A stretch of DNA of 64,000 bases from Buchnera aphidicola (Macrosiphum gaurae) (GTDB lineage: Bacteria > Pseudomonadota > Gammaproteobacteria > Enterobacterales > Enterobacteriaceae): assembly GCF_005080965.1 (NCBI RefSeq), contig NZ_CP034867.1:434001-498000 (forward strand), written 5' to 3'. Made by a program: the position numbers and the translations under genes. Positions 2,083-64,000 of the stretch are shown piece after piece. The notes under the pieces were generated by a model. The model saw only the letters and a program-made list of their open reading frames with translations, had not been told where the DNA came from and searched no databases. Positions within the stretch are counted from its first letter, which is position 1. The number at the start of each line of letters is the position of its first letter.

Positions 2083-2828
2083 ATGTATTTTAATGTTATT
2101 ACTATTTTCCCGGAAATGTTTAATGCGATTATTAATTATGGCATAATAGGACAAGCAATTAAAAAAAAAATTATTAATATTAATTTTCTTAACCCAAGAA
2201 ATTTTAGTAAAAACAAATATAAATCTGTAGACGATCGTCCTTATGGAGGAGGACCTGGAATGTTGATGAGTTTTGAACCATTATATCTAGCTATTCAAGA
2301 AGCTAAGTCCAGATTAAAAAATGCAACTGTTATTTATCTATCTCCTCAAGGTAAAAAATTAGAACAAAATAATATAACAGAATTGATTAAAAAAAAAAAA
2401 ATTATCTTTATATGTGGTCGATACGAGGGAATAGACCAAAGAATTATTGCTAATCAAGTAGATGAAGAATGGTCTATAGGAAGTTATATACTGACCGGAG
2501 GAGAATTAGCTGCAATGGTTATGATTGACTCTATTTCTCGATTAATTCCAGGTGTTATTAAAAAAAAGTCAATAGAAGAAGATTCTTTTTCTAATAATCT
2601 ACTTGATTATCCCAGTTATACTCGACCTGAAATTATAAAAAACATGTCAGTGCCTAAAATATTATTGTCTGGAAATCATGATCAAATTCGTATTTGGCGT
2701 TTAAAAAAATCACTTGGAACAACATGGATTAAACGTCCTGATCTTCTAAAAAAAAAAAATTAACAGAAGAAGAAACAATGCTGTTAAATGAATTTAAAAA
2801 AAAATTTAGAGAAAAAAATAATTATTAA
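2083..2828 (+). CDS. trmD: tRNA (guanine-37-N1)-methyltransferase TrmD, frameshifted at a poly(A) tract
   Basis: SPOUT-family enzyme that makes m1G37 in tRNAs reading CUN, CCN and CGG, preventing +1 frameshifting. The knotted AdoMet-binding region is intact (DDRPYGGGPGMLM, GRYEGIDQR, SIGSYILTGGE). Start at ATG 2083 aligns exactly with E. coli MWIGIISLFPEMF; an in-frame ATG at 2056 would add nine residues. In the genomic frame a stop comes at 2761-2763, just after a run of 12 A (2748-2759). One extra A restores the family C-terminus LTEEETMLLNEFKKKF and ends at TAA 2826-2828, giving about 248 residues (255 in E. coli). A second run of 13 A (2389-2401) is read in frame. Confidence 0.93.
2748..2759 (+). 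other. Poly(A)12 frameshift/slippage tract in trmD
   Basis: Twelve consecutive A residues at which the trmD frame breaks. Thirteen A joins the two parts and restores the conserved tail. It could be a transcriptional slippage site or a homopolymer miscall. Confidence 0.8.
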
Positions 2829-2860
2829 TTTTTTTATTTTTCTGAATTAAAGAGGAAATT

Positions 2861-3208
2861 ATGCTCAGTATAATTCAAGAAATTGAAAAAGAACAAATAA
2901 AAAAAAATATACCTATTTTTAGATCCGGAGATACTGTGGAAGTGAAAGTATGGGTTATTGAGGGTTCTAAAAAACGTCTACAATCTTTTGAAGGAATAGT
3001 AATAGCAATAAAAAATCGTTATTTGAATTCATCTTTTACTGTACGTAAAATTTCTAATGGAGAAGGTATTGAACGAGTTTTTCAAACACATTCTCATAGT
3101 ATTGATGAAATTATTATAAAAAGAAAAGGTTTAGTTAGAAAAGCTAAATTATATTATTTAAGAACTCGTACTGGAAAAGCTGCACGTATTAAAGAAAGAC
3201 TAAATTAA
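2861..3208 (+). CDS. rplS: 50S ribosomal protein L19
   Basis: Large-subunit protein at the 30S-50S interface. The 115 residues equal the E. coli length, with strongly conserved segments such as [39 protein letters not shown] and [13 protein letters not shown]. It is last in the rpsP operon, begins 32 bases after the restored trmD stop with an AGAGGA ribosome binding site, and is followed by a clear intrinsic terminator. Confidence 0.98.
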
Positions 3209-3215
3209 TTTTAAT

Positions 3216-3253
3216 ATGCAGTCATAATAGAATTCTTGACTGCATTATTTTTT
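3216..3253 (+). terminator. Rho-independent terminator of the rpsP-rplS operon
   Basis: Perfect stem ATGCAGTCA/TGACTGCAT with a 12-nt loop, followed by TATTTTTT. It lies eight bases after the rplS stop and between convergent rplS and tldD. Confidence 0.85.
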
Positions 3254-3291
3254 ATACTATGTAAATAGTAATTGATTTTTATTTCTAAAAA

Positions 3292-4743
3292 TTATAAAGT
3301 TCCACCGATAGTTAATTTTTCTAATTTCATCGATGGTTGACCAATTCCAACTGGAATATTTTGACCATCCTTACCACAGATACCCATTCCTTGATCCATT
3401 TTTAAATCATCACCAACCATAGATATTTGTTGCATTACTTCTAAACCTGATCCTATTAGAGTTGTATTTTTAATTGGTGTCAAAATTTTTCCTTTCTTAA
3501 TTAAATAAGCTTCGGAAGTGGAAAATACAAATTTTCCAGAAGTAATATCAACTTGACCTCCAGAAAAATTTAAAGCATATATTCCATAATCAACACTTTT
3601 AATTATATCATCTATTTTAGATGTTCCAGATAACATATAAGTATTAGTCATACGAGGCATAGGTAAATATGAATAAGATTCACGACGTGCATTTCCAGTG
3701 GATTTCATTCCCATTAAACGTGCATTCATTTTATCCTGCATATACTTTTTTAGTATTCCATTTTCAATTAAAACATTATATTGACCTGGAGTACCTTCAT
3801 CATCGATACTTAATGATCCACGCTGATCTTTAATTGTTCCATCATCAATAATAGTACATAATTCTGATGCAACCCTTTTACCAATCATATTAGTGAATAT
3901 TGAAGTACCTCTTCTATTAAAATCGCCTTCTAAACCATGACCTACGGCCTCATGTAACAGAACACCTGGCCATCCAGAGCCTAAAACTACTGGAAATGTA
4001 CCTGAAGGAGCTTCTTTTGAAGATAAATTTAATAAAGCTATACGAACAGCTTCTTTAGACCAATAATCAATTCTAATTTCTTTTGAAAAATCATCTTTAT
4101 CTAAAAAAAAGTTATAGTCGGTACGACTTCCTCCTCCACTGCGACCACGCTCTCTTTTTCCATGATCTTCAACTAAAACACTAATTGAAAATTGTACTGA
4201 TGGTCTTATATCTGTTGCTAAATCCCCATCAGTGGAAGCAATTAAAATCTGCTCATACCCTCCTGTTAAGGTGGCGTTTACTTCTATAACACGAGAATCA
4301 AAACTGCGTGCTATATGATTTGCTCTATAAAGAAGATCAATTTTTTCTCTAGAAGAGAATATTGGCAAAGGATTCGCAGTACTATAAAAAGGTTGTATTT
4401 GTTTTCTTGATAAGGTTTTTGTTTTTCCTGAACCTTTTGTAAAAATAATACTACATGCTTTATTAGTACTAGTTCTCAAGGAATCTATTGATATTTGATC
4501 TGCGTAGGCAAATCCTGTACTTTCTCCTTTAATAGCTCTAACTCCAATACCTTGGTCAGAATGATAATTTCCTTCTTTTATAATGCCGTTTTCTAACGAC
4601 CAAGATTCATGAATGTGAGATTGAAAATACAGATCCCCATAATCTAACTTGCGTTTACAAAGTTCTTCCAAAGAAATAAAAATATCTTGAGAATTTATTT
4701 GATTTGCAGATAACAAATTTTCAGTAACTAATTCAAATGTCAT
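3292..4743 (-). CDS. tldD: Metalloprotease TldD
   Basis: TldD/PmbA-family zinc metallopeptidase. With its partner TldE (PmbA), not in this window, it forms a heterodimeric protease that degrades unfolded peptides and matures microcin/CcdA-type substrates. The metal-binding motif HEAVGHG sits near residue 264, and the glycine-rich C-terminal signatures ([30 protein letters not shown]) are intact. Length is 483 residues (481 in E. coli). It is monocistronic, convergent with rplS and divergent from aroQ. Confidence 0.96.
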
Positions 4744-4854
4744 TTAAACTCACTTAATTTATGATAATATTATATATATCCATTATAAAAGATAAAATAA
4801 CAAACAAAAATATTTTTTCTAAGAAATATTATACAATTTTTTAAAGAGATTAAT

Positions 4855-5325
4855 ATGAAAAATATTATAAATATATTATTAATAAATGGACCTAATTTAA
4901 ATCTTTTAGGAACAAGAGAAACTAAAATTTATGGCAATATTACCTTATCTGATTTATTAAAGAACTTGGAAATAAAAGCAAAAAAACTTAATATATCTTT
5001 AAAACATATACAATCTAATGCAGAACATGTGTTAATTGATAAAATTCATTCTTCAAGAAAAAAGGTTGATTATATAATTATTAATCCAGCAGCTTTTACA
5101 CATACCAGTATAGCTATTCGAGATGCATTAATTGCAGTTAATATTCCCTTTATTGAAGTTCATATTTCAAACATTTATGCTAGAGAAAATTTTCGTTCTC
5201 ATTCGTGGTTGTCTGATATTTCTAAAGGTGTAATTTGCGGACTAGGTCTAGATGGTTACCATTGGGCGTTAGAAACAATACATAATAGAATGATCAGTTT
5301 AAAAGATAATAAAATTTATAAATAA
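4855..5325 (+). CDS. aroQ: 3-dehydroquinate dehydratase, type II
   Basis: Third step of the shikimate pathway, 3-dehydroquinate to 3-dehydroshikimate, feeding aromatic amino acid synthesis. Family hallmarks are the N-terminal [16 protein letters not shown], the mobile-loop Tyr in IYGN, the substrate-binding QSNAE and [17 protein letters not shown], and the catalytic His in IEVHISN. The 156 residues are usual for the dodecameric type II enzyme. E. coli uses the unrelated type I enzyme AroD, so this is a point of difference from it. It has its own start with an AGAGA ribosome binding site and is convergent with fis. Confidence 0.96.
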
Positions 5326-5439
5326 AATATTCAGAATACTAAAAAACAAGATTGAATAAATGTTAATTATTTATAAAAAATACAATCAAGTTATTAAAAC
5401 TATTCCACAAAAAAAATTTTAATAATCAAAAATGTACTT

Positions 5440-5478
5440 TTGCACTCTCTTAAGTTGTTGTTAAAATAGAAAGTGCAA
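5440..5478 (-). terminator. Hairpin between convergent aroQ and fis, probable fis terminator
   Basis: TTGCACTCTC pairs with GAAAGTGCAA (ten positions, one mismatch) around a 19-nt loop. Read on the minus strand it is followed by ACATTTTTGATT, a weak U-tract, so it best fits termination of fis; it could also stop aroQ readthrough. Confidence 0.5.
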
Positions 5479-5509
5479 TTAGAAAGAGTCTAAAAAATCT
5501 TTAAAATCA

Positions 5510-5806
5510 TTAATTCATATTGTATTTTTTTAATTTTTTACGTAATGTGCTACGATTAATTCCCATCATTAAAGCAGCACGTGTTTGATTTCCTCTAGTA
5601 TACTGCATTATCATATCTAAAAGTGGCTGTTCTAATTCCGCCAATACTAATTCATATAAATTATCTACATTTTTACCATTTAAATTTAATAAATAATGTT
5701 TTAAAGATTTTTTTACTAATTCACGCAAAGGTATTTTTATATTTTCATCTTGATTATTTATAGTAGATAAAAACATAAATTCAATGTTATTTTTTTTTTC
5801 CAGCAT
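5510..5806 (-). CDS. fis: DNA-binding nucleoid protein Fis
   Basis: Homodimeric DNA-bending protein that organises the nucleoid and activates rRNA and tRNA promoters. The 98 residues equal E. coli Fis. The C-terminal helix-turn-helix, [21 protein letters not shown], is almost unchanged (Ser for Gly in the turn), whereas the N-terminal half has diverged. In E. coli fis is in an operon with dusB; here no dusB is present and fis stands alone. It is one of only two evident global regulators in the window, with csrA. Confidence 0.97.
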
Positions 5807-5964
5807 AGTACCATTAACTCTTAATTTTTTTATTTTATATACATTGTTTTAAAAAAATTGTACTTAAAAAGTAAATTTTTTATATATGAAATAATACATT
5901 TTAAAATTATTGATGAAATAAATAATATGTTTTATTAAGAATAAATACAATAAAATAAAAAAGT

Positions 5965-6915
5965 TTATTTAATATTTGATATTTTCAGAATAAGTTCTTG
6001 CATATCGTAAGGCAGAGGTATTGTCCAAGACACCAAATTATTATTGGCAGGATGATGAAAAGAAAGATGACTGGCATGTAATGCTTGACGAGAAAATTGA
6101 TAGATTTTATTGATCTTTTTATCTTTTATATAATTGAGTTGAATGTTAGAACCTCCATAATAAGGATCTCCAACTAATGGGTGTTTAATATGTAACATAT
6201 GAACACGTATTTGATGAGTGCGTCCAGTTTCTAATTTTATTGCTATATGCGTATGAAATTTAAAACGATTAATTATTTTATAATGAGTAACTGATTTTTT
6301 TCCTAAATGATGTACCATCATACAAGTTCTTTTAGAATGATGACGCATGATAGGCTGATTAATAGTCCCACCTGAAATCATTTTGCCTTTAACAATAGCT
6401 TCATATTCTCGAGTAATTTTTCTTTTTTTTAATTCTGATAATAAATAGTTATAAGAAAATAAAGTTTTTGCAATAACCATTAATCCACTAGTATTTTTAT
6501 CTAAACGATGAACTATTCCCGCACGAGGCAAGTCTTTAATATATTTATAATGATATAATAAAGCATTTAAAATTGTTCCTTTTTCATTTCCAGAACCTGG
6601 ATGAACAACTAAACCAGCAGGTTTATTAATAACTAGTATATCATTATCTTCATAGATAATATTTAAAAAAATATTTTCTGGAACATTAAATAATATATCT
6701 TTAGAAAAAGGATAAATTGTAAGTATTTCTCCTCCTAAAATCTTTTTATTCGGTTGGTTTAGAATTTTTTTATTGACTAATACTCGGTTCATAAAAATTA
6801 AATTTTTCAAATAAGAACGAGAATATTCTTTAAATATTTTAGATAAAACTAGATCTAATCTCTTCCCCAATAATGACGAACATGATACCACAGCACTTAG
6901 CTCTTTTTTTTTCAA
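5965..6915 (-). CDS. rluD: 23S rRNA pseudouridine synthase RluD
   Basis: Makes pseudouridines 1911, 1915 and 1917 in helix 69 of 23S rRNA. An N-terminal S4 RNA-binding domain (residues 1-75) is followed by the RsuA/RluD catalytic domain, with the catalytic Asp in the motif IVHRLDKNTSGLMVIAKT. The RTHQIRVHM and HPLVGDPYYGG signatures are present. Length is 316 residues (326 in E. coli). It is divergent from bamD, the same arrangement as in E. coli. Confidence 0.97.
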   Translation of the reverse strand: MKKKELSAVVSCSSLLGKRLDLVLSKIFKEYSRSYLKNLIFMNRVLVNKKILNQPNKKILGGEILTIYPFSKDILFNVPENIFLNIIYEDNDILVINKPAGLVVHPGSGNEKGTILNALLYHYKYIKDLPRAGIVHRLDKNTSGLMVIAKTLFSYNYLLSELKKRKITREYEAIVKGKMISGGTINQPIMRHHSKRTCMMVHHLGKKSVTHYKIINRFKFHTHIAIKLETGRTHQIRVHMLHIKHPLVGDPYYGGSNIQLNYIKDKKINKIYQFSRQALHASHLSFHHPANNNLVSWTIPLPYDMQELILKISNIK

Positions 6916-7058
6916 TATAATTACCCTTATATTTTGATGAATATTATTTTAACTTTAAAAGCGAATTTTTAATATTTATAGAATATGATATTCTATATAA
7001 TTACAAACATAAATATTTTTAATAAAAATTCTTATTAATTTAAATCAAATACATAATA

Positions 7059-7802
7059 ATGAAAAAAAAGCAGAGTATTATAATTACTTTTATAATTTTA
7101 TTTTTAAGCTTAACAGTTCATTCTCAATCTTTAAAAAACAATTATTTTATAGAAACATATATTCTCTATGAAAAATCTGAAAGAGAATTAAGAAAAGAAC
7201 ATTTTGATAATACTATATTTATATTAGAAAAAATAAAAAAAAATAATATTGCAAATTTTAATAATGATAAAATTCAAATGCATTTAATTTATGCTTATTA
7301 TAAAAACTTAAATTTTGATATGGCTCAAAAAAATATAGAGGAATTTATATATTATTATCCAAACCATCCAAATTTAGATTACGTGATGTATATAAAATGT
7401 TTAATTAGTATGACTCTAGATAAAGATATATTTTTTAAAATCTTACCTATAGATCATTATAAAAATGATATTAATCATACAATACATTCATTCTTTCAAT
7501 TGAAGAATTTTATTTATCAATATCCTAAAAGTCGATATCTTGTAAATGCTAAAAAAGATTTAATATATCTAAAAAATCGTTTATCTGAATATGATCTTAA
7601 AATCTTAAAGTTTTATTTTTTTCATAAAAAATATATAGCTGTTATAAATAGAGGAGAAGAAATAATTCAAAAATATTCAGAAACGCCAGCTGCACGAAAA
7701 GCTCTTATATATATGGAAAAATCTTATAAAGCATTAAAAATTTTTGATACAGCAAAAAAAATATCAAAAATAATTTTATTAAATAAAGTTCAAGAAACTT
7801 AA
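7059..7802 (+). CDS. bamD: Outer-membrane assembly factor BamD (YfiO), no lipobox cysteine
   Basis: Component of the BAM complex that, with BamA, inserts beta-barrel proteins into the outer membrane. It has TPR-like repeats such as [40 protein letters not shown] and YPKSRY (the family's AYQRFPNSKY-like motif). Length is 247 residues (245 in E. coli). The N-terminus has a hydrophobic signal sequence ending [11 protein letters not shown]. coli has the lipidated Cys here (LAGCS), and this protein has no Cys in the region, so it cannot be a canonical lipoprotein. It is divergent from rluD, as in E. coli. Confidence 0.92.
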
Positions 7803-7957
7803 AATTAATATAAAAATATTTGTTTTATGCAAAATATTGTAAAATATTTCCTACTAATATTCTTTTATGATTATTTTAAAAATAAAATGATTTAATAAAT
7901 TCCGTTTTTAGAATACCGCGTTCATATCATATTTATTTTTAATTAACAAGACAAATA

Positions 7958-10594
7958 ATGAATAAAACAACAAATAAAATACGTCAAGATTTTTTAAAAT
8001 TTTTTAAAGAAAAAGAACATGTAATTATTCCAAGTAGTTCTTTAATTCCTCATAATGACTCTACATTATTATTTACTAATGCAGGTATGAATCAATTTAA
8101 AGAAATCTTTTTAGGCGAAAAAAAAATCCACCACTCACGTGTAGCTACTGTTCAACGATGTTTAAGAACTGGAGGGAAACATAATGATTTAGAAAATGTC
8201 GGATACACTTCAAAACATCATACATTTTTTGAAATGCTTGGAAATTTTAGTTTTGGAGATTATTTTAAAAAAAAGGCAATCGAGTATGCTTGGGAATTAT
8301 TAACATCACAAAAATGGTTCAACATACCAAAAAATAAATTATGGGTCTCAGTATATCAAGATGATCATGAAACATATAAAATCTGGCATAACATCATAAA
8401 AATACCTTCTGAACGCATTATAAAGATAGGTGATAAAAACAACATTCAATATAATTCTGAAAATTTTTGGCAAATGGGTGATAGTGGACCATGTGGTCCT
8501 TGTACTGAAATATTTTATGATTATGAAAATAAAATTATAAATAATCCACTAGAGTTTTTAGAAAACAAAAACGGTCGGTTTGTTGAAATTTGGAATATTG
8601 TTTTTATAGAATTTAATCGTATATCAAATACAAAAATTATTTCTTTAGAAAACAAATCTATAGATACAGGTATGGGATTGGAAAGAATATCTGCTGTTTT
8701 ACAAAATGTTTATTCTAATTATCATATCGATATATTTCAAGAATTAATAGAAACTATATCTAAATTTAGTTCTTCAAATAATTTAAACAATGTTTCTTTA
8801 CAAGTTATAGCAGATCACATTAGATCTTGCGTATATATTATTGCAGATAATATTACTCCGTCAAATGAACACAGAGGTTATGTTTTAAGAAGAATTATCA
8901 GACGAGCATTAAGACATGGACATAAAATCGGAATTAAACAAAATTTTTTTTACAAACTAGTATCTAGTGTAATTAAAATTATGGGCAAAACTGCTGATTT
9001 TTTAAAAGAAAAACAAAAAAAAATAGAAGAAATTTTAAAAATAGAAGAAAAACAATTTTCTTATACGCTTGATAAAGGTTTAAAAATATTAAATAACGAA
9101 ATAAAAAAAATAAATAGCAATATACTTTCGGGTAAAACCGCATTTTATCTTTATGATACTTTTGGCTTTCCAATTGATTTAACAGCAGATGTTTGTCGTG
9201 AAAAAAATATAAAAATAGATTACACTGAATATGAATCATTTAAAGAAAAACAAAAAAAACAATCAAATGTTAATAAAAAATTTCATAAAAATTATAATGA
9301 TAAGATTATTATAAATGATACGTGTATTTTTGAAGGTTACAAAAAAAATACAACAAAATCATTAGTAAAACATATTTTTGTAAAAAATAAATCTGTTAAC
9401 AATATTAAAATAAATGAGAATGGAGTTATTTTCCTTGATAAAACAACATTTTATGGCGAATCAGGAGGACAAATAGGTGATATAGGTTATTTGTATTCTG
9501 AAAAATCATCTTTTGTAGTAGAAAACACAAAAAAATATGGAAACACAATAGGACATATTGGAAAATTAATTTCAGGAGAAATTGCAGTTGATGATTTTAT
9601 TTACAGTAAAATTAACAAAGATTACAGACATTCTATTCAATTAAATCATTCCGCAACACATTTATTACATGCTGCGCTACGAAAAATTTTGGGAAATAAC
9701 ATTAGTCAAAAAGGTTCTTTAGTAACTAATAAATATTTAAGATTTGATTTTTCTTATTTTAGAACAATAGATAAATCTCAAATACAGAAAATTGAAAATG
9801 TAATTAATATAAATATTCGTAAAAATGTTAAACTTGAAACTCAGGAGCTAAGTTTAGAAGAAGCCAAAAAGAAAAATGCAATAGCTTTGTTTGATAATCA
9901 ATATAGTTCTATCGTACGAGTTGTATTTATGAACAATTTTTCAATTGAACTTTGTGGTGGAACACATGTCAAAAGAACTGGTGATATTGGATTATTTAAA
10001 ATTATTTCTCAATCAAGCATAGCATCAGGAATCAAACGAATTGAAGCTGTAACGGGACAAAAAGCTATAGATTATTTGCATAAAACAGATAATTATATAA
10101 AAGATATATCTTTGATATTAAATTGCAATATTTTCGATATTAAAGAAAAAACAAAAAAACTTACTATTGTAATAAAAAATTTAGAAGAAAAAATAATTCA
10201 AATAAAAAATAAAGAAAATACACAAAATATAAAAAAATTACTTAAAAAAAGTACAGATATAAAGGGTACAAAATTTTTATCAAATATTTTTTATAACTAT
10301 GAACATAAATTATTAAGAGTCATAGTTGATAAGTTAAAACAAGAATTAAAGAATGTAATTACTATTTTAATAAATATTAAAGATAACCGCTTTACTGTTA
10401 TTGTTGGAGTTACGAAAAATTTACTTAATCAAATAACGGCAATAAGAATTATAGATATGATTACAAATGAAACACATGGAAAAGGAGGGGGAAGAGATGA
10501 AATCGCTGAAGGAGGAGGTATTTATACAAAACAACTACCTATTATTTTAGATAATATAAAATCATGGATTAATAAAAAGCTACATAAACAATAA
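7958..10594 (+). CDS. alaS: Alanyl-tRNA synthetase
   Basis: Class II synthetase charging tRNA-Ala. An N-terminal catalytic core (motif 1 region FTNAGMNQFKEIFLG, motif 2 region VATVQRCLRTGGKHND, motif 3 region GMGLERISAVLQ) is followed by the editing domain and a divergent C-Ala domain. The editing zinc ligands HSATHLLH (about residue 564) and CGGTHVKRTG are conserved, so mischarge correction looks intact, unlike LeuRS in this window. Length is 878 residues (876 in E. coli). It is followed by csrA, as in E. coli. Confidence 0.98.
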   Translation: MNKTTNKIRQDFLKFFKEKEHVIIPSSSLIPHNDSTLLFTNAGMNQFKEIFLGEKKIHHSRVATVQRCLRTGGKHNDLENVGYTSKHHTFFEMLGNFSFGDYFKKKAIEYAWELLTSQKWFNIPKNKLWVSVYQDDHETYKIWHNIIKIPSERIIKIGDKNNIQYNSENFWQMGDSGPCGPCTEIFYDYENKIINNPLEFLENKNGRFVEIWNIVFIEFNRISNTKIISLENKSIDTGMGLERISAVLQNVYSNYHIDIFQELIETISKFSSSNNLNNVSLQVIADHIRSCVYIIADNITPSNEHRGYVLRRIIRRALRHGHKIGIKQNFFYKLVSSVIKIMGKTADFLKEKQKKIEEILKIEEKQFSYTLDKGLKILNNEIKKINSNILSGKTAFYLYDTFGFPIDLTADVCREKNIKIDYTEYESFKEKQKKQSNVNKKFHKNYNDKIIINDTCIFEGYKKNTTKSLVKHIFVKNKSVNNIKINENGVIFLDKTTFYGESGGQIGDIGYLYSEKSSFVVENTKKYGNTIGHIGKLISGEIAVDDFIYSKINKDYRHSIQLNHSATHLLHAALRKILGNNISQKGSLVTNKYLRFDFSYFRTIDKSQIQKIENVININIRKNVKLETQELSLEEAKKKNAIALFDNQYSSIVRVVFMNNFSIELCGGTHVKRTGDIGLFKIISQSSIASGIKRIEAVTGQKAIDYLHKTDNYIKDISLILNCNIFDIKEKTKKLTIVIKNLEEKIIQIKNKENTQNIKKLLKKSTDIKGTKFLSNIFYNYEHKLLRVIVDKLKQELKNVITILINIKDNRFTVIVGVTKNLLNQITAIRIIDMITNETHGKGGGRDEIAEGGGIYTKQLPIILDNIKSWINKKLHKQ

Positions 10595-10737
10595 AATAAG
10601 AAGTATTTTCGTTTTACATGTGAAACATTAAATACTGAAGAAATTATCAGTTCAAAATTTATTGAGAATATACAATTAGAATATATTATCTAAATGTCTA
10701 ATGGTCTACGTTTAACCCTGTATTATTCATAACGCCA

Positions 10738-10775: not shown

Positions 10776-10782
10776 ACAAAGA

Positions 10783-10956: not shown

Positions 10957-10974
10957 AAAAATTATTAATCAATG

Positions 10975-11215: not shown

Positions 11216-11233
11216 ATTATTAATTTTTATATT

Positions 11234-14542: not shown

Positions 14543-15264
14543 ATGATAAAAAAAATTTTGATTTTTATAATTAGTATGTTTTTTTTTTATCCTTGAATAA
14601 AAAAAATAATTTTAAAAAAAATACTATAAAAAATTTCTATCAAGCAAAAATTATATCAATAAAAATAAACAAAAATTCCCCAGGTTCTTTTTATTGTGGA
14701 TGTAAAATTGTTTGGAAACAAAAAAAAGGTGTTCCTGATCTATATTCTTGTGGATATAAAATTCGAAAAAATATTAATCGTGCAACAAGAATTGAATGGG
14801 AACATGTCGTACCAGCATGGCAATTTGGACATCATAAAAAATGCTGGAAAAAAGGAGGTCGTAAAAAATGTATCGCAGATAGAACATACCAATATATTGA
14901 ATCTGATCTTCATAATTTACAACCCGTGATTGGAGAACTTAATGCAGATCGTTCTAATTTTATATATGGTCAAGTAAGCTATAATACTTCAAAGTATGGG
15001 AGATGCAATATGAAAATAGATTTTCAAAGAAAAATAGCAGAGCCACCTGAAAGAGCTCGGGGCAGTATAGCTAGAACTTATTTTTATATGAGTAAAAAAT
15101 ATAATGTCATTTTGTCTAAAAAAGAAAAGAAAACATTTTCAATGTGGGATAAAATTTTTCCTGTTACAAAGTGGGAATGTGAAAGAGAAAAATTAATATT
15201 TAAAATACAAGGCAATCATAATAATTATGTTTATAAAAAATGTTATAAAAAAAGAAAAATATGA
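14543..15264 (+). CDS. endA: Endonuclease I (EndA), frameshifted at a poly(T) tract in the signal peptide
   Basis: Periplasmic, relatively nonspecific DNase of the endonuclease I family. The mature part is very well conserved: SFYCGCKI, the catalytic region [42 protein letters not shown] and [12 protein letters not shown] 14543 begins a signal sequence, [15 protein letters not shown], but a run of ten T (14579-14588) puts it out of frame and a TGA follows at 14594. One extra T joins signal peptide and mature enzyme into 240 residues (235 in E. coli). An in-frame TTG at 14593 would give a form with no signal peptide and is unlikely to be the natural start. It overlaps rsmE by four bases. Confidence 0.9.
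14579..14588 (+). other. Poly(T)10 frameshift tract in endA
   Basis: Ten T residues between the signal-peptide frame and the mature-enzyme frame. Eleven would restore a continuous protein. Confidence 0.75.
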
Positions 15265-43561: not shown

Positions 43562-44660
43562 ATGTCAGAAACAAATATGATAACCAATCAAATTAAAACT
43601 TTTAAAAAACGCATAAAAGACCTCAAGAGGTATCTTTGACTATAACAAAAAAGAATCTCGTATTTCAGAAATTAATTTAGAATTATCACTACCTGAAACA
43701 TGGAAAAATCAAATATCTATAAAAAAACTTAATAAAGAAAAATATTTATCAAGTTCTGTAGTTCAAAAGATTAATGAAATAGAAGAAAATATTAAAGAGG
43801 TAACTATTTTTTTAGAATTAGCAGTAGAAACAGAAGATGAAAGTGTATTAAAAGAATCTTTCATAGAAACACAAAAAATAGAAAAAAAAATTAAAAAACT
43901 TGAGTTTTATCGTATGTTTTCAAAAAAAAATGACCACTGCAATTGTTATATGGATATACAATCTGGTTCAGGAGGTACAGAAGCACAAGATTGGGCTAAA
44001 ATGTTACTTAGAATGTATTTAAGATGGGCTGATAAAAAAGGATTTCAAACAGAAATTATTCACGAATCTATTGGAGAAATAGTGGGTATCAAATCTTCTA
44101 CTATTAAAGTAAATGGAGAATATGCATTCGGATGGCTAAGAACAGAAACAGGAATACATCGTTTGATTAGAAAAAGTCCTTTCGACTCTGGGAATCGACG
44201 CCATACTTCTTTTGGTTCAATTTTTATATATCCAGATATAGATGAAAAAATTAACATAAACATAAATTCTTCTGATCTTAGAATTGATGTTTATAGAGCA
44301 TCTGGAGCTGGAGGACAACATGTAAATAGAACAGAATCAGCCGTACGTATTACTCACTTACCTACAAGTATTGTCACCCAGTGTCAAAATAATCGTTCTC
44401 AACATAAAAATAAAGAACAAGCAATGAAGCAAATGAAATTAAAACTATATGAAATGGAAATAAGAAAAAAACAAAAAGTGAAGCAAAAAATAGAAAAAAA
44501 TAAATCAAATATAACCTGGGGTAATCAAATACGATCATATGTATTAGATAACTCAAAAATTAAAGATCTTCGTACTGGTATTGAAAAAAATCACATTCAA
44601 TCTGTTTTAGACGGTGATTTAGATGATTTTATTGAACAAAGTTTAATAATTGGATTATAA
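43562..44660 (+). CDS. prfB: Peptide chain release factor 2, with programmed +1 frameshift
   Basis: Class I release factor for UGA and UAA. The reading frame from ATG 43562 reaches TGA at codon 26 (43637-43639), exactly as in E. coli, and continues in the +1 frame from GAC at 43638. The joined product is 365 residues, the E. coli length, with the catalytic GGQ in [15 protein letters not shown]. The SPF anticodon-like tripeptide lies in the conserved region as LPTS/RSPF-type context ([14 protein letters not shown]). Followed after nine bases by lysS, in the conserved prfB-lysS operon. Confidence 0.97.
43625..43640 (+). promoter_or_regulatory. RF2 autoregulatory +1 frameshift site
   Basis: AAGAGG (Shine-Dalgarno-like, 43625-43630), then TAT, then the slippery CTT TGA C. 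The core matches E. coli; the upstream stimulator is AAGAGG instead of AGGGGG, which still pairs with the anti-Shine-Dalgarno. Low RF2 lets ribosomes slip and make more RF2. Confidence 0.95.
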
Positions 44661-50587: not shown

Positions 50588-51054
50588 ATGAAAAATATTA
50601 TTTTAAATCTGCAACATTGTTGTCAGAAAAGTGAAAACATACCAAAAAAATTATATTTTAAAAAATGGATAAAAAAAGTTTTATATAAAAAAAAAACATT
50701 AATATAATCACGATACGAATCGTAGATGAATTAGAGATTAAAAAATTGAATTTTACTTATAGAAAAAAAAATAAACCTACAAATATTTTATCATTTCCTT
50801 ACAATCAATTTATTAAAGGCAATTATAAATTATTAGGAGATTTAGTATTATGTAAGAATATAATAGAAAAAGAATCTTTAAAATATGAAAAATTATTAGA
50901 ATCACACTGGGCCCATATAACAATACATGGAACACTACATTTATTAGGATATGATCATCAAAATAATCACGAAACAGATATTATGGAAAAAATTGAAAAT
51001 AAAATCATGCTTTCTTTGAATTATAAGCAACCACACATTTTAAAAAATTATTAA
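50588..51054 (+). CDS. ybeY: Endoribonuclease YbeY, frameshifted at a poly(A) tract
   Basis: Zinc-dependent endoribonuclease for 16S 3'-end maturation and 70S quality control. ATG 50588 opens the N-terminal half; at a run of ten A (50687-50696) the frame is lost and stops at TAA soon after. One extra A joins it to TIRIVDELEIKKLNFTYR, NILSFPYN and the metal-binding motif HGTLHLLGYDH. The joined product is 155 residues, exactly the E. coli length. A TTG at 50746 could in theory start the 3' half but would remove the N-terminal fold. Zn-ligands intact, so function is probably preserved if frame is restored. Confidence 0.9.
50687..50696 (+). other. Poly(A)10 frameshift tract in ybeY
   Basis: Ten A residues at the junction of the two ybeY frames; eleven would restore the 155-residue protein. 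Confidence 0.8.
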
Positions 51055-55719: not shown

Positions 55720-55744
55720 TATTTCACATTTAAACAAACAAAAA

Positions 55745-56395: not shown

Positions 56396-56463
56396 TGATC
56401 CCCTTAATTCTTTTATTTTTTATAATACTAAAAGAAATAATTTGAAAGATATTTGATGAAAAA

Positions 56464-56694
56464 ATGGAAAAAAAAATTATATTGAATTTAATTGGACTAC
56501 GATGTCCAGAACCAATTATGATAATAAGAAAAACACTTCGCAATATGAAAAAAAATGAAAAAATATTAGTTTTATCAGATGATCCAACAACTAAAAGAGA
56601 TATTCCAAATTTCTGTTATTTTATGGAACATCAGTTGTTAAAAAATGAAATAAAAGTGAAACCTTATCGTTATTTATTAAAAAAAGGATTATAA
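56464..56694 (+). CDS. tusA: Sulfur transfer protein TusA
   Basis: Accepts sulfur from IscS as a persulfide and passes it to TusBCD/E for 2-thiouridine in tRNA. The persulfide Cys is in GLRCPEPIM (residue 14), followed by [17 protein letters not shown] and a C-terminal PYRYLLKKG. Length is 76 residues (81 in E. coli). Convergent with asd across a large hairpin. Confidence 0.96.
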
Positions 56695-56726
56695 ATTTTA
56701 AAAATATTTCTTATATAAACTATATG

Positions 56727-56790
56727 TTTAATATATACACTTCAAATTTAATATATAATCATTATATATAAATACAGTGTATATATTAAA
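56727..56790. terminator. Large nested hairpin between convergent tusA and asd
   Basis: Outer arms 56727-56741 and 56776-56790 are a perfect 15-bp inverted repeat. The 34-base loop itself contains a further dyad (TTTAATATATAA / TTATATATAAA, 56747-56772). No canonical U-tract follows on either strand. A bidirectional terminator or cruciform-forming site is inferred. Confidence 0.55.
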
Positions 56791-56821
56791 AAAACTTCTA
56801 TTTTTCTAAGTAGAAAATATA

Positions 56822-57934
56822 TTATAAATTAATTAGTATTTTTAACATTCTTCTTAAAGGTTCTGCAGCGCCCCATAAAAGTTGATCGCCGACAGTAAAA
56901 GCAGATAAATATTTTTTCCCCATGTTCAATTTTCTTAAACGACCTATCGGTATATTTAATGTATTAGTTACAGAAGATGGAGTTAATTTTAACAATGTAT
57001 CTTTTATGTTGTTTGGAATAACATTAACCCATCGATTATGATTTTCAATAATTTCTTCAATATTTTCCAAAGAAAGATCTTTTTTTAATTTAATAACAAA
57101 TGCTTGACTATGACAACGAAGTGAACCAATTCGGACACATACACCATCAATTAAAATTTTATTTGCAGATCCTAAAATTTTATTGGTTTCGGCTTGACTT
57201 TTCCATTCTTCTCGACTTTGACCATTGTTCATTTTTATATCGATCCAAGGTATTAAACTACCAGCTAAGGGAACAGAAAATTTTTCCACAGGAAAATCAA
57301 AGTTGCGAGATATTTCAGTTACTTTATGTTCAATATTTAAAATTGAAAGAGAATTATTTGATAAATCTTTTTCTACGACATTGTATAACTTACCCATTTG
57401 ATTTAACAACTCTATCATATGACGTGCACCTGCACCAGATGCCGCTTGATAAGTAGACATAGAAATCCACTCGACTAGTTTTTTTTTAAATAAACCTCCT
57501 AAAGACATTAACATCAAACTAACAGTACAGTTACCTCCTATAAAAGTTTTAATTCCCTTGTTTATAGAATTTTGTATAAGGTCGTAATTTACTGGATCTA
57601 ATATAATTACAGAATCACTTTCCATTCGTAAATTAGAAGCTGCATCTATCCAATAACCTTGCCAACCATTTCTTCGTAATTTTAGATAAACCTCTTGAGT
57701 ATACATTCCTCCTTGACAGGTAATTATAATATCCATCTCTTTCAATACATCAAAATCATAAGCATCTTCTAACATATTATGTGATATATTATTTAATAAA
57801 GGACTTTTTTGACCAAATTGAGATGTTGAGAAAAATACAGGTTTAATTTTAAAAAAATCATTTTCTTCTTGCATTCTTTTCAACAAAACTGATCCAACCA
57901 TTCCACGCCAACCAACTAAACCTACAGTTTTCAT
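56822..57934 (-). CDS. asd: Aspartate-semialdehyde dehydrogenase
   Basis: NADPH-dependent reduction of aspartyl phosphate, the branch point for lysine, threonine, methionine and diaminopimelate. N-terminal [16 protein letters not shown], catalytic Cys in [38 protein letters not shown] and RCHSQAF. I start at ATG 57934, which aligns with E. coli; a TTG at 57955 would add seven residues. Length is 370 residues (367 in E. coli). Divergent from yhgN, its E. coli neighbour. Confidence 0.97.
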
Positions 57935-58234
57935 CTTTAATAAATACGCGGACAATTTATATTAACAGTGGTCTTTATTAAAATTAATAATAAATACAGT
58001 TAAAGTAAACGTTTTCCGGCTCCTAAAAAATTAGCAAAAGAATATTATTTAATAATAATAAATTTTATGTAAGAAAAATATATACTCTCTAAAGATATGA
58101 GAAATTTTTAATAAGAATATTAAAATAGAAAATTCTATTTTAATTTTAAATATACTATAAAATCATAATTTTATTTTAGAAAAAATATTTTACATCAAAA
58201 ATAGCATAACTTTAAAAGGATATAATAGATTAAA
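57935..58234. other. Divergent asd/yhgN intergenic region with a long inverted repeat
   Basis: No gene recognised. Bases 58120-58143 form an 11-2-11 inverted repeat (left arm TTAAAATAGAA) in front of yhgN, a candidate operator or leader hairpin. An AAAGGA ribosome binding site precedes yhgN. Confidence 0.45.
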
Positions 58235-58825
58235 ATGACTGAAATAATCTCTACGACCATATTACTAATTCTAATTATGGATCCTTTAGGAAATCTTCCG
58301 ATATTCATGACAATATTAAAACACCTAGAAGAAAAACGACGAAGAATTGTAGTTATACGTGAAATGATTATAGCATTAATTGTTATGCTATTATTTTTAT
58401 TTGTTGGAGAAAAAATACTTGTAATTCTAAATTTAAAAACTGAAACTGTTTCAATATCTGGAGGTATTATTTTATTTTTAATTGCTATTAAAATGATTTT
58501 TCCTTCTGAAGATAATAATAATGAAGTTTCTGCATATGAAGAACCTTTTTTAGTTCCCTTAGCTATCCCATTAGTTGCAGGACCATCTTTATTAGCAACA
58601 TTAATGTTGCTATCACATCAATATTTACATCATATGCTTTATTTAGTGGGATCATTACTAATTGCATGGTGCTTCACCGTTATAATATTATTATTATCCG
58701 GTCTATTTTTAAAATTATTTGGTTCAAAAGGTGTTAATGCTTTAGAACGTCTTATGGGTTTAATTTTAATTATGCTTTCTACCCAAATGTTTCTTGATGG
58801 AATCAAAGTATGGTTTAAAAATTAG
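58235..58825 (+). CDS. yhgN: MarC-family inner-membrane protein YhgN
   Basis: Predicted six-transmembrane MarC-family protein of unknown transport function. Signature MDPLGNLPIFMTIL in the first segment and LAIPLVAGPSLLATLMLL in the middle repeat are conserved. Length is 196 residues (197 in E. coli). Neighbour of asd as in E. coli. Retention in a reduced genome suggests a needed membrane function; the substrate cannot be read from the sequence. Confidence 0.92.
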   Translation: MTEIISTTILLILIMDPLGNLPIFMTILKHLEEKRRRIVVIREMIIALIVMLLFLFVGEKILVILNLKTETVSISGGIILFLIAIKMIFPSEDNNNEVSAYEEPFLVPLAIPLVAGPSLLATLMLLSHQYLHHMLYLVGSLLIAWCFTVIILLLSGLFLKLFGSKGVNALERLMGLILIMLSTQMFLDGIKVWFKN

Positions 58826-58842
58826 AATATATTTTTTTTGAG

Positions 58843-58869
58843 AACCTGTTATTAGTAGAATAACAGGTT
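58843..58869. repeat. Perfect 11-bp hairpin between yhgN and pgk
   Basis: Arms AACCTGTTATT (58843-58853) and AATAACAGGTT (58859-58869), loop AGTAG. It is followed by AAAATAAG, not T-rich, and preceded by TTTTTTTT, so it is not a standard intrinsic terminator for the plus strand. Role unknown: mRNA 3'-end protection or processing is possible. Confidence 0.6.
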
Positions 58870-58946
58870 AAAATAAGTATTTAAAAGAAAATATGAAATA
58901 GATTAAAAAAATCAATAATAAAAAAATTAATAAAAAAGGCATTATC

Positions 58947-60119
58947 ATGACTATAAAAAAAATAACTGAAATAAATATAACTGGAAAAAGAGTTTTAATA
59001 AGAAGTGATTTAAATGTTCCTATAGAAAACGGTATTATTCAATCTGATGCCAGAATACTAGCGGCTTTACCAACTATTAAATTAGCTATTAAAAACAATG
59101 CAAAAGTAATTGTTATGTCTCATTTAGGAAGACCAAAAGAAGGATGTTATACAAAAAAATATTCTTTATTACCAATATTTCAATATTTTAAAAAAATATT
59201 TACTAATACTAAAATACATTTTTCTGATAATTTTTTAGATGGCATTCAACTTAATACAGGAGAAATTGCAATTTTAGAAAATACTCGTTTCAATGAAGGA
59301 GAATCACAGAATAGTGACAACTTATCTAAAAAATATTCCAATCTTTGTGACGTATTTGTGATGGACGCATTTGGAAGTTCACATAGGATAGAATCATCTA
59401 CTTACGGGATTGGAAAATTTGTTAAAATAGCATGCTCTGGACTACTTTTAATAAATGAAATAAATGCTTTAAAAAAAGCATTAAAAAAACCAAAACGTCC
59501 AATGGTGGCTATAATTGGAGGTTCTAAAGTATCAACTAAATTCAATATATTAGATAAATTAGGGAAAATTGCAGATACGATAATAGTTGGTGGAGGTATA
59601 GCAAATACTTTTTTAGCCATTGATTATAAAATAGGAAAATCATTACATGAACCAAATTTTATATTTGAAGCTAAAAAATTACGTGAAAAATACAATATTA
59701 TTGTACCGATCGATTCTCGTATTGGAAAAAAATTCTGTAAATATGAAAAATCTACAATTAAATTGCCGAATGATATAAAAGAAGACGAAGAAATTATGGA
59801 TTTTGGCGACGAAAGTATTAAAAAAATTGTTAATATTCTTAAAAAATCTCAAACAATTATTTGGAATGGACCAGTTGGAGTATTTGAATTTCCAAACTTT
59901 AGAAAAGGAACTGAAATAATTGCAAAAACCATTGCACATAGTAAAGCATTTTCTATAGCAGGAGGAGGAGATACATTATCTGTTATTGATATGTTTAATA
60001 TAAAAAACAATATCTCTTATATTTCAACTGGAGGAGGGGCTTTTTTAGAGTTTATGGAAGGGAAAAAATTACCTGCAATACATATGTTAGAAGAAAATTT
60101 TAAAAAACAAATCACATAA
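58947..60119 (+). CDS. pgk: Phosphoglycerate kinase
   Basis: Glycolytic enzyme making ATP from 1,3-bisphosphoglycerate. N-terminal RSDLNVPIENG and SHLGRPKEG, GGSKVSTK hinge, and C-terminal nucleotide-binding GGGDTLSVI and STGGGAFLEFMEGK. Length is 390 residues (387 in E. coli). First gene of pgk-fbaA, 15 bases apart, as in E. coli. Confidence 0.98.
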   Translation: MTIKKITEINITGKRVLIRSDLNVPIENGIIQSDARILAALPTIKLAIKNNAKVIVMSHLGRPKEGCYTKKYSLLPIFQYFKKIFTNTKIHFSDNFLDGIQLNTGEIAILENTRFNEGESQNSDNLSKKYSNLCDVFVMDAFGSSHRIESSTYGIGKFVKIACSGLLLINEINALKKALKKPKRPMVAIIGGSKVSTKFNILDKLGKIADTIIVGGGIANTFLAIDYKIGKSLHEPNFIFEAKKLREKYNIIVPIDSRIGKKFCKYEKSTIKLPNDIKEDEEIMDFGDESIKKIVNILKKSQTIIWNGPVGVFEFPNFRKGTEIIAKTIAHSKAFSIAGGGDTLSVIDMFNIKNNISYISTGGGAFLEFMEGKKLPAIHMLEENFKKQIT

Positions 60120-60134
60120 TTAATAGGAAAAAAA

Positions 60135-61217
60135 TTGAACATTTTAAATGTTATCAAACCTGGTGTTATGAATGGTGATGAAGCTCGAATAGTATTTGAA
60201 TTAGCGAAAAAAAAACGATTTGCAATACCAGCTGTGAATTGTATAGGGACTGATTCTATTAATGCTGTTTTAGAAACTGCTGCTAGAGTAAAATCTCCAG
60301 TTATCATACAATTTTCTCATGGAGGAGCTTCTTTCATTGCTGGTTATAAAAACTATTTTTCACCATCTCAAGAAGAGCAAGCAATACAAGGGTCTATATC
60401 TGGTGCTCAACATGTACATTTAATGGCGAAATATTATAAAATTCCAGTCATACTTCACACTGATCACTGTCCTAAAGAAATGTTGTCATGGATTAATGGA
60501 CTACTAGAAGTCGGCGAAAAATATTACCATGATAAAAAGAGACCTCTTTTTACTTCTCATATGCTTGATTTGTCAAAAGAAAGTTTACAAGAAAATATTT
60601 CCACTTGTAAAAAATATTTAAAAAAAATGCAAAATATTAATATGATGTTAGAAATAGAATTAGGTTGCACAGGAGGAGAAGAAGATGGTATTGATAATAC
60701 TAAAATAGATAAAAAATTACTTTATACACAGCCTCAAGATGTAAATTATGCTTACGAAGAACTAAATAAAATTAGTAAAAATTTTAGTATTGCTGCTTCA
60801 TTTGGTAATATACATGGTGTTTATCAACCTGGAAATATTGATCTAAGACCTATTATTTTAAAAAATTCACAAGAATTTGTAAGTACTAAACATAATCTAG
60901 AAAAAAATCCATTAAATTTAGTATTTCATGGAGGTTCAGGTTCAAATTTAAAAGAAATTAATGAATCCATTAAATATGGTGTTGTTAAAATGAATATTGA
61001 TACTGATATACAGTGGGCTGCATGGAAAGGTGTACTAAATTTCTACAAAAAAAATAAAGAATTTTTACAAAATCAATTAGGAAATACAAAAGATAAAAAT
61101 CAACCTAATAAAAAATACTATGATCCAAGATCATGGATAAGAAAATCACAGAAATCAATGTCTATTAGATTAGAAAAATCATTTAAAGATTTAAATGCTC
61201 TCAATATTTTAAAATAA
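60135..61217 (+). CDS. fbaA: Fructose-bisphosphate aldolase, class II
   Basis: Zinc aldolase splitting fructose 1,6-bisphosphate. Zn ligands in ILHTDHCPK, ELGCTGGEEDG, GNIHGVY and HGGSGS, and substrate loop NIDTDIQWA. The start is TTG 60135 after a TAGGA ribosome binding site; the N-terminus MNILNVIKPGVMNGDEA aligns with E. coli MSKIFDFVKPGVITGDD, which supports it. Length is 360 residues (359 in E. coli). Confidence 0.97.
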   Translation: MNILNVIKPGVMNGDEARIVFELAKKKRFAIPAVNCIGTDSINAVLETAARVKSPVIIQFSHGGASFIAGYKNYFSPSQEEQAIQGSISGAQHVHLMAKYYKIPVILHTDHCPKEMLSWINGLLEVGEKYYHDKKRPLFTSHMLDLSKESLQENISTCKKYLKKMQNINMMLEIELGCTGGEEDGIDNTKIDKKLLYTQPQDVNYAYEELNKISKNFSIAASFGNIHGVYQPGNIDLRPIILKNSQEFVSTKHNLEKNPLNLVFHGGSGSNLKEINESIKYGVVKMNIDTDIQWAAWKGVLNFYKKNKEFLQNQLGNTKDKNQPNKKYYDPRSWIRKSQKSMSIRLEKSFKDLNALNILK

Positions 61218-61244
61218 TTTTTATAAAAAATTTTAATTTGATTC

Positions 61245-61270
61245 CGGGGAATAAATAAAAATATTCTCCG
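61245..61270. repeat. Hairpin between fbaA and mscS
   Basis: CGGGGAATA pairs with TATTCTCCG (nine pairs, one G-U) around an eight-base loop, unusually GC-rich at its base for this region. AAAATCGC follows on the plus strand, so no U-tract. Confidence 0.5.
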
Positions 61271-61355
61271 AAAATCGCTGCATTGCAAAATAGACTATTT
61301 ATTGAAATAAATTATTGTAGTTTTTTAATTACTAGAAAAATATACAGAGAACATG

Positions 61356-62201
61356 ATGGATGAATTAAATGTGGTAAATGATATCAATCATGCAGGAAAT
61401 TGGTTGATACGTAATCAAGAGTTACTGCTTGGATATATGGTGAATCTAACATCTGCTATTATTATTTTAATTGCCGGAATGTTTATATCTAAAATTATAT
61501 CAAATGGAGTCAACCAAGTATTAATTACTCGTAATATTGATGCTACTATTGCTGGTTTTCTTTCCGCATTAATGCGATATATTATTATTACTTTTACACT
61601 CATTGCTGCATTAGGTAGAATTGGAGTACAAACAACATCAGTAATCGCTATATTAGGAGCAGCTGGTATGGCAATAGGTTTAGCTTTGCAAGGATCTTTA
61701 TCAAATTTTGCTGCTGGTGTATTATTGGTCACACTTAGACCGTTAAAAACTGGAGAATATGTTAATTTAGGAAGTGCTTCAGGAACTGTACTAAATATTC
61801 ATATTTTTTATACGACACTTCGTACTTTAGACGGAAAAATTGTGGTCGTTCCTAATAATAAAATTATCTCTGGTAATATTATTAATTATTCGAGAGAACC
61901 TGCTCGTCGTAATGAATTTATTATCAGTGTATCTTATAATAGTGATATTGATTTAGTAATAAAAATATTACGTAAAGTAATAGAAAAAGAAGATCGAGTG
62001 ATTAAAGATAGAGATATTATTGTTGGTCTGAGTGAATTAGCTCCATCTTCTCTGAACTTTATAGTGCGCTGTTGGAGCAAAAATAATGATTTAAATTCAG
62101 TATATTGGGATTTAATGGCTAATTTCAAAAAAGAATTAGATAAAAATAATATTAATATTCCTTATCCTCAATTAGATGTACATTTATATAAAAAAAAATA
62201 A
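61356..62201 (+). CDS. mscS: Small-conductance mechanosensitive channel MscS
   Basis: Heptameric tension-gated channel releasing solutes on hypo-osmotic shock. Three transmembrane helices; the pore helix TM3 region with [24 protein letters not shown] is nearly identical to E. coli, followed by the beta domain ([21 protein letters not shown]) and cytoplasmic cage. I use the second of two adjacent ATGs (61353, 61356) because [11 protein letters not shown] aligns with E. coli. Length is 281 residues (286 in E. coli). pgk-fbaA-mscS order is that of E. coli. Confidence 0.97.
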
Positions 62202-62260
62202 AGACAATATAAATATCAAAAAATGTAGAAAATTTTAATTTATTTTAGAAGAAGATTGTT

Positions 62261-64000
62261 ATGTTTAAAGTTTATAAATCAAACTCACTCAATATACTCT
62301 TATTAAAAGCATATGATATTATTCAAAAAAAACCTCTTTCTAATATTTTTGAAAAAGAGATTTTTATTTATGATAATAAAGTATTATTTCAATATTTAAA
62401 TATATTTCTTGCTGAAAAAGTAGGCATTTCCGCAAATTTTAAATTGTATCATCCTAAAGATTTTATATGGAAATTATTTCAAATCATATTATCTAAAAAA
62501 GAGCTAAAAAATACGTTTACTCATTCTATAATGATTTGGAAAATTATGAATATTTTAGATCAAAAAAATTTTTTTGAATATTACGATAACAAAAAAAAAA
62601 ATAAAACCCAAAATTTTAAATTTTCATTTTTAATGGCAAATATATTTGAACAATATATCTTTTATCGTCCTAATTGGATTAATGATTGGGAAAAAAAAAA
62701 CAATCAAAAATTAATCTGAGCGAAAAATGGCAAATAAAATTATGGATGAAAATAATAGACAATACAAAAAAATTAAATCAGTGTACTCATCATTTTTCAA
62801 ATTTATTTTATGATTTTTACAAATTAATTAAAGAAAAAAAAATAAAAAAAACACACTTACCTAATCGCTGTTTTGTCATTTCTTCTTTTTCGCTAAATCC
62901 TTCTTATATAAAAATTTTAAAAAAAATAAGTATATATATGAATATTTATTTTTTATATATTACACCTTATAAAAATAATATATTTAATTCAATTCAACCT
63001 AATAAAGTTTATTCATATGAAAAAATAGAAAAAGAAAACACTTTAAATAATTCATTAATGACATTATGGGGGCAATATGAAAAAATTTATTCTTTAGATA
63101 TAATTAAATCTCCAGAAATTAAAATTATTAATTACTTCAAAAAAAATAAAGATGATAATTTACTAAATAATATTAAAAATGATTTTTTTCAAAGTATTAA
63201 ATCAAGAAAAAAAAGATTTTTAAAAATAACAGATAACTCAATTTCTATCAATATTTGTTTTAATAAAAAAAATGAAATTGAGATACTACATGAAAAATTA
63301 TTAACATTTTTTCATGAAAATTCATCTATACAACCTGGCGATATAGTTGTTATTTCTTTTTTACTTGATGATTATATTCCGTATATTGACGCAATATTTA
63401 CAAAAGTAGACAAAAAAAAACAAATTCCTTTTTTTATTTCTAGAAAATTTTCTAAAAAAACAGAAATAATACTATCTTGTTTTAAAAAAATATTAAATTT
63501 ACCAAATAGTCGTTTTGAAAACGAAGAGATATTAGAATTACTTGATGTTCCTGAAATAGCAAAAAAATTTAATTTTTCAGAAGAAGAAATAAAAATTCTA
63601 TATGCTTGGATAGAAGAAGCAAATATTCGATGGGCTGTTGATTGTAAACATAAAGACTATTTATCCTTTCCTAGAGATAAACAAAATACCTGGTTTTATG
63701 GGATAGAAAAACTACTTTTGAGTTATGCAATGAATGATAGAGAAAAAATTTGGAATAATATTTTATCATGCAGTTCAATCAATGGTTCTAGAGCAGAACT
63801 TGTCGGAAAATTAATCATATTCATAAACACACTTAAGAAATGGCAAAAGAAATTATCTAAATCACAATATCTTACATATTGGTGTTCGTTATCTAAAAAA
63901 TTAATTATTGATTTTTTTTTCTACAGCAAAAAAATGGAAAAATCTATTCAGATGATTCAAAAGAATTGGATGAAAATGATTAATGATAGTTTATTGTCTA
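62261..64000 (+). CDS. recC: Exodeoxyribonuclease V gamma subunit RecC, frameshifted at a poly(A) tract and cut by the window end
   Basis: Chi-recognition and scaffold subunit of RecBCD. The N-terminal part (MFKVYKSNSLNILLLKAYDI; ISANFKLYHPKDFIWKLF; YRPNWINDWEKK) reads from ATG 62261 and stops at TGA 62718-62720 after a run of ten A (62691-62700). One extra A continues into SEKWQIKLWMKIID, which matches E. coli RecC, and the frame stays open to base 64000 with LELLDVPEIAKKF, ANIRWAVD and LLLSYAMND. The rest of the gene lies outside. Sequence is strongly diverged but collinear with E. coli RecC. Confidence 0.9.
62691..62700 (+). other. Poly(A)10 frameshift tract in recC
   Basis: Ten A residues at which the recC frame breaks; eleven join two collinear RecC segments. 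Confidence 0.8.

Follow-up and report, generated by a model that had tools for sequence, protein, structure and literature searches.

How can a gene that has lost its reading frame at a homopolymer still be alive, and can genome sequence alone tell such a gene from a sequencing error or a dead gene? The question is raised by a 64,000-nucleotide stretch of Buchnera aphidicola (Macrosiphum gaurae), here called the window (positions 434001 to 498000 of the chromosome, contig NZ_CP034867.1), in a genome of 654,448 bases and 3 contigs. Four conserved genes, trmD, endA, ybeY, and recC, leave frame there at a run of A or T. A first-pass annotation had given the tracts as A12, T10, A10, and A10, which is exact for both length and position, and had claimed that one added base restores each gene; in every case the second part does continue in the frame that one further base in the tract would give (Table 1). 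Here, we compare these tracts across the genus. The endA T10 and ybeY A10 tracts have probably been out of frame since about the common ancestor of this genus, and we regard transcriptional slippage biased to add a base as the probable means by which the frame of such real, out-of-frame tracts is restored.

The comparison searched 36 genomes of the genus, of which the nearest relative (G011) shares 93.3% identity across the window; endA counts are based on 35 genomes, because G024 has no endA match. We equate G030 with APS Tokyo (pea aphid), G002 with Ak, G001 with Sg, G017 with Ua, and the outgroup G079 with Bp. In endA, 28/35 genomes are out of frame at the same point, each in the phase of a tract one base short; 26 of them carry T10 and 2 carry T9, and the other 7 genomes are in frame. 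The break lies between the hydrophobic start and the mature nuclease. ybeY is out of frame at the same point in 26/36 genomes and in frame in 10, and 24 of the broken copies are one base short (23 with A10, and G026 with A9). Both genes are also out of frame in the pea-aphid genome. Divergent species thus share the same break in endA and in ybeY without decay. A tree of the 36 genomes, built from three loci and rooted at its midpoint, places both genes out of frame at the root and requires 6 changes for each. From these states we tentatively infer a single old origin for each break.

Outside the genus, ybeY of Bp is one open frame of 164 codons. One-short breaks at poly(A) were also seen in ybeY of G048 (a 1.1-Mb genome of another genus), near the same point, and of G087, at a different run; these look convergent. 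ybeY has been reported as frameshifted in Blochmannia turneri in the available text of PMC4389277.

The runs in endA and ybeY are retained better than runs that lie in frame. Among 16 runs of at least 9 bases at the three loci (35 to 36 genomes), these two rank highest for retained length, at 27/35 and 24/36 genomes, each count including one in-frame copy of equal run length (p = 0.008, a post hoc value like the next, because endA and ybeY were picked from the four genes after inspection); the third-best run, T9 of metK, is retained in 22/35. Across the whole window in 15 relatives, a tilted set in which endA is in frame nowhere and ybeY in just 3 genomes, the run is kept in 14 (endA) and 13 (ybeY), whereas 45 in-frame tracts average 36% and reach 11/14 at most (p = 0.0009). 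The 45 are what was left of 49 control tracts when 4 that could be mapped in fewer than 12 genomes were dropped. Such conservation fits expression that depends on slippage, because a silent change can end an in-frame run free of cost, which an out-of-frame gene cannot afford.

Judged by the ratio of nonsynonymous to synonymous substitution rates (dN/dS), purifying selection acts on endA and ybeY downstream of the tract. For pairs of out-of-frame copies, downstream dN/dS is 0.08 to 0.39 in ybeY (8 pairs) and 0.14 to 0.45 in endA (9 pairs), and for the few in-frame pairs it is 0.08 and 0.22 in ybeY and 0.10 in endA. The downstream frame is full length in all out-of-frame copies, with 114 to 121 codons in ybeY and 206 to 217 in endA (114 to 116 and 206 to 216 in the in-frame copies). 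Values well below 1 and full-length frames bear out, for these two genes, the first-pass impression that the parts downstream of the tracts look to be under selection. Upstream, endA is open as far as the tract in all 28 out-of-frame copies and ybeY is stop-free in 26/26. Furthermore, no ATG, GTG, or TTG stands in the second frame ahead of the conserved core in 24/26 ybeY copies (core strand) and 19/28 endA copies (CGC motif). Barring a rarer start codon, a full-length product can therefore be made from most copies only if the frame shifts in or close to the tract.

That the downstream half alone might be translated from an internal start, with the upstream half a leftover, is quite improbable. 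Internal initiation is workable in principle for the minority of copies that have a start codon (2/26 ybeY and 9/28 endA), and the upstream part of ybeY is weakly constrained (25 codons, too few for a firm reading; dN/dS 0.08 to 0.93, with dS 0 in one pair), a point that also tells against slippage as an explanation. Rarer starts such as ATT might serve in the other copies. The open upstream frames argue the other way, and internal initiation gives no reason for the conservation of the tracts. We rejected it as a general answer, since most copies have no usable start.

The primary breaks all go in the same direction. At runs of at least 9, 18/18 primary sites are one base short (p = 8e-6 versus even odds), a primary site being a break within one clear overlap of two open frames. 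Fifteen are protein sites from broader scans for frame breaks, which covered, in 16 of the 36 genomes, the region that matches the window (one each in dsbA, endA, nlpD, polA, rimM, rsmE, and ybeY and two each in lgt, nadD, recC, and trmD), and 3 are recC sites in other genomes. The 15 were merged by hand from 21 context groups, leaving out the ybeY copies that are off in the opposite direction, and the 18 do not include an A13 break of G021, also one base short, that lies close to where the fetched sequence stops. The first automatic scan was blind to breaks common to all genomes, and a second was queried with intact copies. The overlap rule misflagged some single breaks as not single (ybeY in several genomes; recC in G009 and G014; nadD in G033), and those rows were excluded. 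By comparison, frameshifts in decaying genes (cys genes, metK, and mutS) go in the opposite direction in 8 of 23 rows (Fisher p = 0.006), each row being a pair of matched pieces, so that one event was possibly counted twice.

In G021 and G001, cysN, cysD, cysG, and cysI (in G001 also cysH) carry several frameshifts and look to be decaying; they are open in the window. In Ua, metK matches only scattered pieces in several frames and mutS has no match, and SAM synthetase appears to have decayed at this place in that genome. Runs at one-short breaks reach extreme lengths for coding sequence, with A20 in recC of G016 and A17 in nlpD of G009.

Transcript data from the pea-aphid symbiont bear on the direction. 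In the available text of Traverse and Ochman (PMC5574713), 151/157 insertions and 16/57 deletions fall in homopolymers, and single-base additions are the majority. With insertions so concentrated in homopolymers, the breaks that the polymerase can repair most often would be the one-short ones. Slippage on these tracts would work as follows. The tracts would be real DNA, one base short; RNA polymerase would slip on A or T runs of about 9 or more, often adding one base; and a share of the messenger RNA (mRNA) would thus be in frame and give full-length protein. Because slippage often adds one base, one-short breaks would be tolerated and opposite breaks mostly lost. In a gene that had come to depend on slippage, a substitution that interrupted the run would switch the gene off, and the run itself would therefore be conserved. 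Each of these genes has a single break, at an A or T run of about 9 or more. For frameshifted endosymbiont genes, corrected transcripts are given as 12 to 50% in the part of PMC5009743 available, and in that of PMC3017870 the corrected share for slippage at such tracts in symbionts is about 30%. We infer the correction in RNA, its rate, and the production of protein from genome sequence. The first-pass annotation had coupled slippage rescue with a genomic bias toward tract contraction. Persistence of the breaks, purifying selection downstream, and the scarcity of internal starts argue for rescue; the one-short pattern holds as well, and it may come from which breaks an added base can rescue, in addition to or in place of a contraction bias.

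The main competitor of slippage is ribosomal −1 frameshifting on A_AAA_AAA or U_UUU_UUU inside the tracts, which would correct the frame without any change in the RNA. It predicts exactly the one-short direction, for A and T tracts alike, and by inspection both A10 and T10 hold a slippery heptamer in the zero frame. In G029, trmD shifts near its end at a run of fewer than 9 bases, which counts for the ribosome and against slippage. For the ribosome, however, 7 bases would do, yet tracts below 9 number 0 among the 28 of endA, the 26 of ybeY, and the 7 of trmD; longer tracts also mutate more, so that this is not decisive. We prefer slippage in RNA, because none of these tracts is below 9 and because slippage has been reported in these symbionts, and we rate ribosomal frameshifting as unlikely.

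Beyond the post hoc choice of genes and the tilted set of relatives, several further observations weigh against slippage as the explanation or against an old origin of the breaks. The fit to the tree is loose, with 6 changes against shuffled-label means of 7.4 (endA) and 8.9 (ybeY), so that several origins of the endA and ybeY breaks are possible. In the six closest genomes alone the two tracts are no exception, with 8/54 in-frame tracts unchanged there too. ybeY is off in the opposite direction in G034 (A13) and G013 (A9), which is best read as later change in an already broken gene. The signal stretch of endA, cut out by script in 27/28 copies, is even shorter than the upstream part of ybeY and too short for dN/dS. 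In Ua, shifts of both kinds lie at a T19 run of the decaying metK. The direction of the breaks could also arise, without any rescue, from replication biased toward shorter tracts, for which the intergenic tracts proved too few to act as a neutral control. Lastly, as far as the available text of Traverse and Ochman (PMC5574713) goes, the mean deletion rate per base is not below the insertion rate, and no frame was seen to be restored by a transcription error in the Buchnera of pea-aphid strain LSR1.

Errors of sequencing or assembly, the other cause considered in the first-pass annotation, would also leave tracts short. All four tracts are one short, as under-calling of homopolymers would have it, and only this genome has the recC break. 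The breaks in endA, ybeY, and trmD, however, recur in other, separate genome records, and those in endA and ybeY occur in Tokyo, Ak, and Sg; Tokyo and Sg we take to have been sequenced by the Sanger method. The window's longest run (A13 at 2389 to 2401, in trmD) and an A11 (62591 to 62601, in recC) are in frame, and comparison of the listed window genes with relatives found no additional frame loss. Illumina and 454 data are mentioned for the Ak/Ua genome project in the available part of PMC3164680. Under-calling is refuted for endA (28/35 genomes out of frame) and ybeY (26/36) and very unlikely for trmD, where 6/35 relatives share the break; recC is the only gene for which it is a possibility. 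As a general answer it was rejected, because the breaks recur across genomes, and as an account of the whole we find it hardly credible.

Ordinary pseudogenes in an early stage of decay are a very improbable alternative. Buchnera genomes do hold decaying genes, among them the cys genes of G021 and G001, and recC has a short open frame in 12/36 genomes, broken at several different tracts. Against this, the branches on which endA and ybeY are out of frame sum to about 4 substitutions per site, with the downstream frame full length in all copies and dN/dS there well below 1. The 18 long-tract sites also share one direction, which frameshifts in decaying genes do not.

The four genes had been treated in the first-pass annotation as one set, which does not hold, and its suggestion to compare tract lengths in related strains is what separates them: the endA and ybeY breaks are genus-wide, the trmD break occurs in some lineages, and the recC break occurs in this genome alone. 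A single cause shared by the four was considered and rejected. trmD is broken at its tract in 7/36 genomes, all one short and all with a recognizable second-frame tail, and parsimony on the genus tree gives 3 changes. In the 12 genomes with short recC and in G030, all inspected individually, the tract at 62691 is broken here only; the remaining 11 genomes lose frame at different A runs, from A10 to A20 and always one base short, and recC of G030 is intact. The downstream recC piece aligns in a single frame to residues 144 to 1070 of a relative's protein. The trmD and recC tracts are without length conservation of the endA and ybeY kind, which counts against slippage; we nevertheless propose that they may be younger or local cases of the same process.

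In G012, trmD carries two one-short breaks, near residue 35 (A10) and residue 235 (A12). At the in-frame A13 of trmD, the five closest relatives have runs of 6 to 10.

Table 1. Parts of the four interrupted genes and their frame-loss tracts, in positions of the window.
Feature	Position	Strand	Support
trmD first frame, 235 codons, stops just past tract	2056..2763	+	PF01746, E 1.3e-63; open reading frame list
trmD frame-loss tract, A12	2748..2759	+	Identical A12 in G011; 7/36 genomes broken here
trmD tail, second frame, LTEEETMLLNEFKKKFREKNNY	2760..2828	+	
endA first frame: start and hydrophobic, signal-peptide-like stretch (MIKKI...FFF)	14543..14596	+	
endA frame-loss tract, T10	14579..14588	+	28/35 genomes out of frame
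endA mature nuclease, second frame	14593..15264	+	Endonuclease_1 PF04231, E 1.3e-38 (14593-15261)
ybeY first frame, 39 codons	50588..50707	+	
ybeY frame-loss tract, A10	50687..50696	+	26/36 genomes out of frame
ybeY second frame, with HGTLHLLGYDH motif	50689..51054	+	YbeY PF02130, E 8.4e-32 (50689-51051, profile 30-127 of 129)
recC first frame, 152 codons	62261..62719	+	Exonuc_V_gamma PF04257, profile 1-150
recC frame-loss tract, A10	62691..62700	+	Broken in this genome only
recC second frame, extends beyond window end	62686..64000	+	PF04257, profile 152-313

The two recC pieces are collinear, since their profile ranges (1-150 and 152-313) abut within one Pfam family, and the upstream piece of ybeY (39 amino acids) on its own matched no Pfam family. 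Over the whole window, coding or not, 4/65 A or T runs of at least 9 break a gene and none of the 256 runs of 7 to 8 was found to do so (p = 0.0016), an excess that is no proof of mechanism, because mutation rate also climbs with length. A fifth interrupted gene, prfB (43562 to 44660), had gone unlisted in the first-pass annotation. It carries the RF2 +1 frameshift motif at 43634 to 43640 (AGGTATCTTTGAC), which is also present in the five closest relatives and serves as a positive control. Like the breaks in endA and ybeY, prfB is a conserved frame break, here one with programmed +1 frameshifting; unlike them, it shifts in the opposite direction and at CTT TGA C instead of at a homopolymer, aided by a Shine-Dalgarno-like element upstream, as described in the available text of PMC3711429.

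Rescue by slippage (Tamas et al. 2008) and ancient, selected frameshifts (Wernegreen et al. 2010) are already in print. Tamas et al. (PNAS), as cited in PMC5009743, PMC3164680, and PMC3017870, described slippage rescue at poly(A) in Buchnera and Blochmannia, obligate insect symbionts in which, as here, a single frameshift lies in a long A tract of an otherwise intact gene. For Buchnera, that work is cited for cell-wall genes with frameshifts and for a locus in the symbiont of Rhopalosiphum padi, whereas here endA and ybeY are broken across most of the genus. Wernegreen, Kauppinen, and Degnan (2010, MBE) are cited for homopolymeric frameshifts conserved between species with no gene decay, which is likewise the case here; as far as that work is cited, it concerns mainly Blochmannia, and neither a one-direction pattern nor a comparison with in-frame tracts is among the points cited, although both may be in the paper itself. 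Degnan et al. (2011), in the available part of PMC3164680, counted 8 to 18 homopolymeric frameshifts per Aphidinae genome and mentioned slippage as possible; unlike endA and ybeY, most of the pseudogenes there are restricted to single genomes, with several independent inactivations, and the gene list may include endA or ybeY. No statement of either gene as a conserved Buchnera frameshift was found in the literature available to us, from which supplementary tables were out of reach, and we accordingly make no claim to a first report. New here are the breaks of endA and ybeY across the genus and the one-direction pattern.

Taken further, and tentatively, the endA and ybeY tracts might be elements that set expression: a useful, lower dose of both nucleases would keep the run at 10 and out of frame, and the rule that no breaks but one-short ones last would reflect the insertion bias of the polymerase. 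We hold this to be speculative and rather unlikely. If true, a DNA endonuclease and an endoribonuclease would each stand behind a fixed 10-base run, with only part of the mRNA productive, and the genome alone would reveal which broken genes are alive.

More generally, DNA alone helps separate selected frameshifts from errors and dead genes, through a shared phase, the one-short direction, and better retention of run length than in in-frame runs. To annotate genes of this type as truncated or as pseudogenes is probably a mistake. endA, with a T run in the coding strand, and ybeY, with an A run there, provide two natural tests across the genus, for which in-frame sister species act as controls, and whether slippage-dependent expression is tolerated or favored in Buchnera becomes directly testable.

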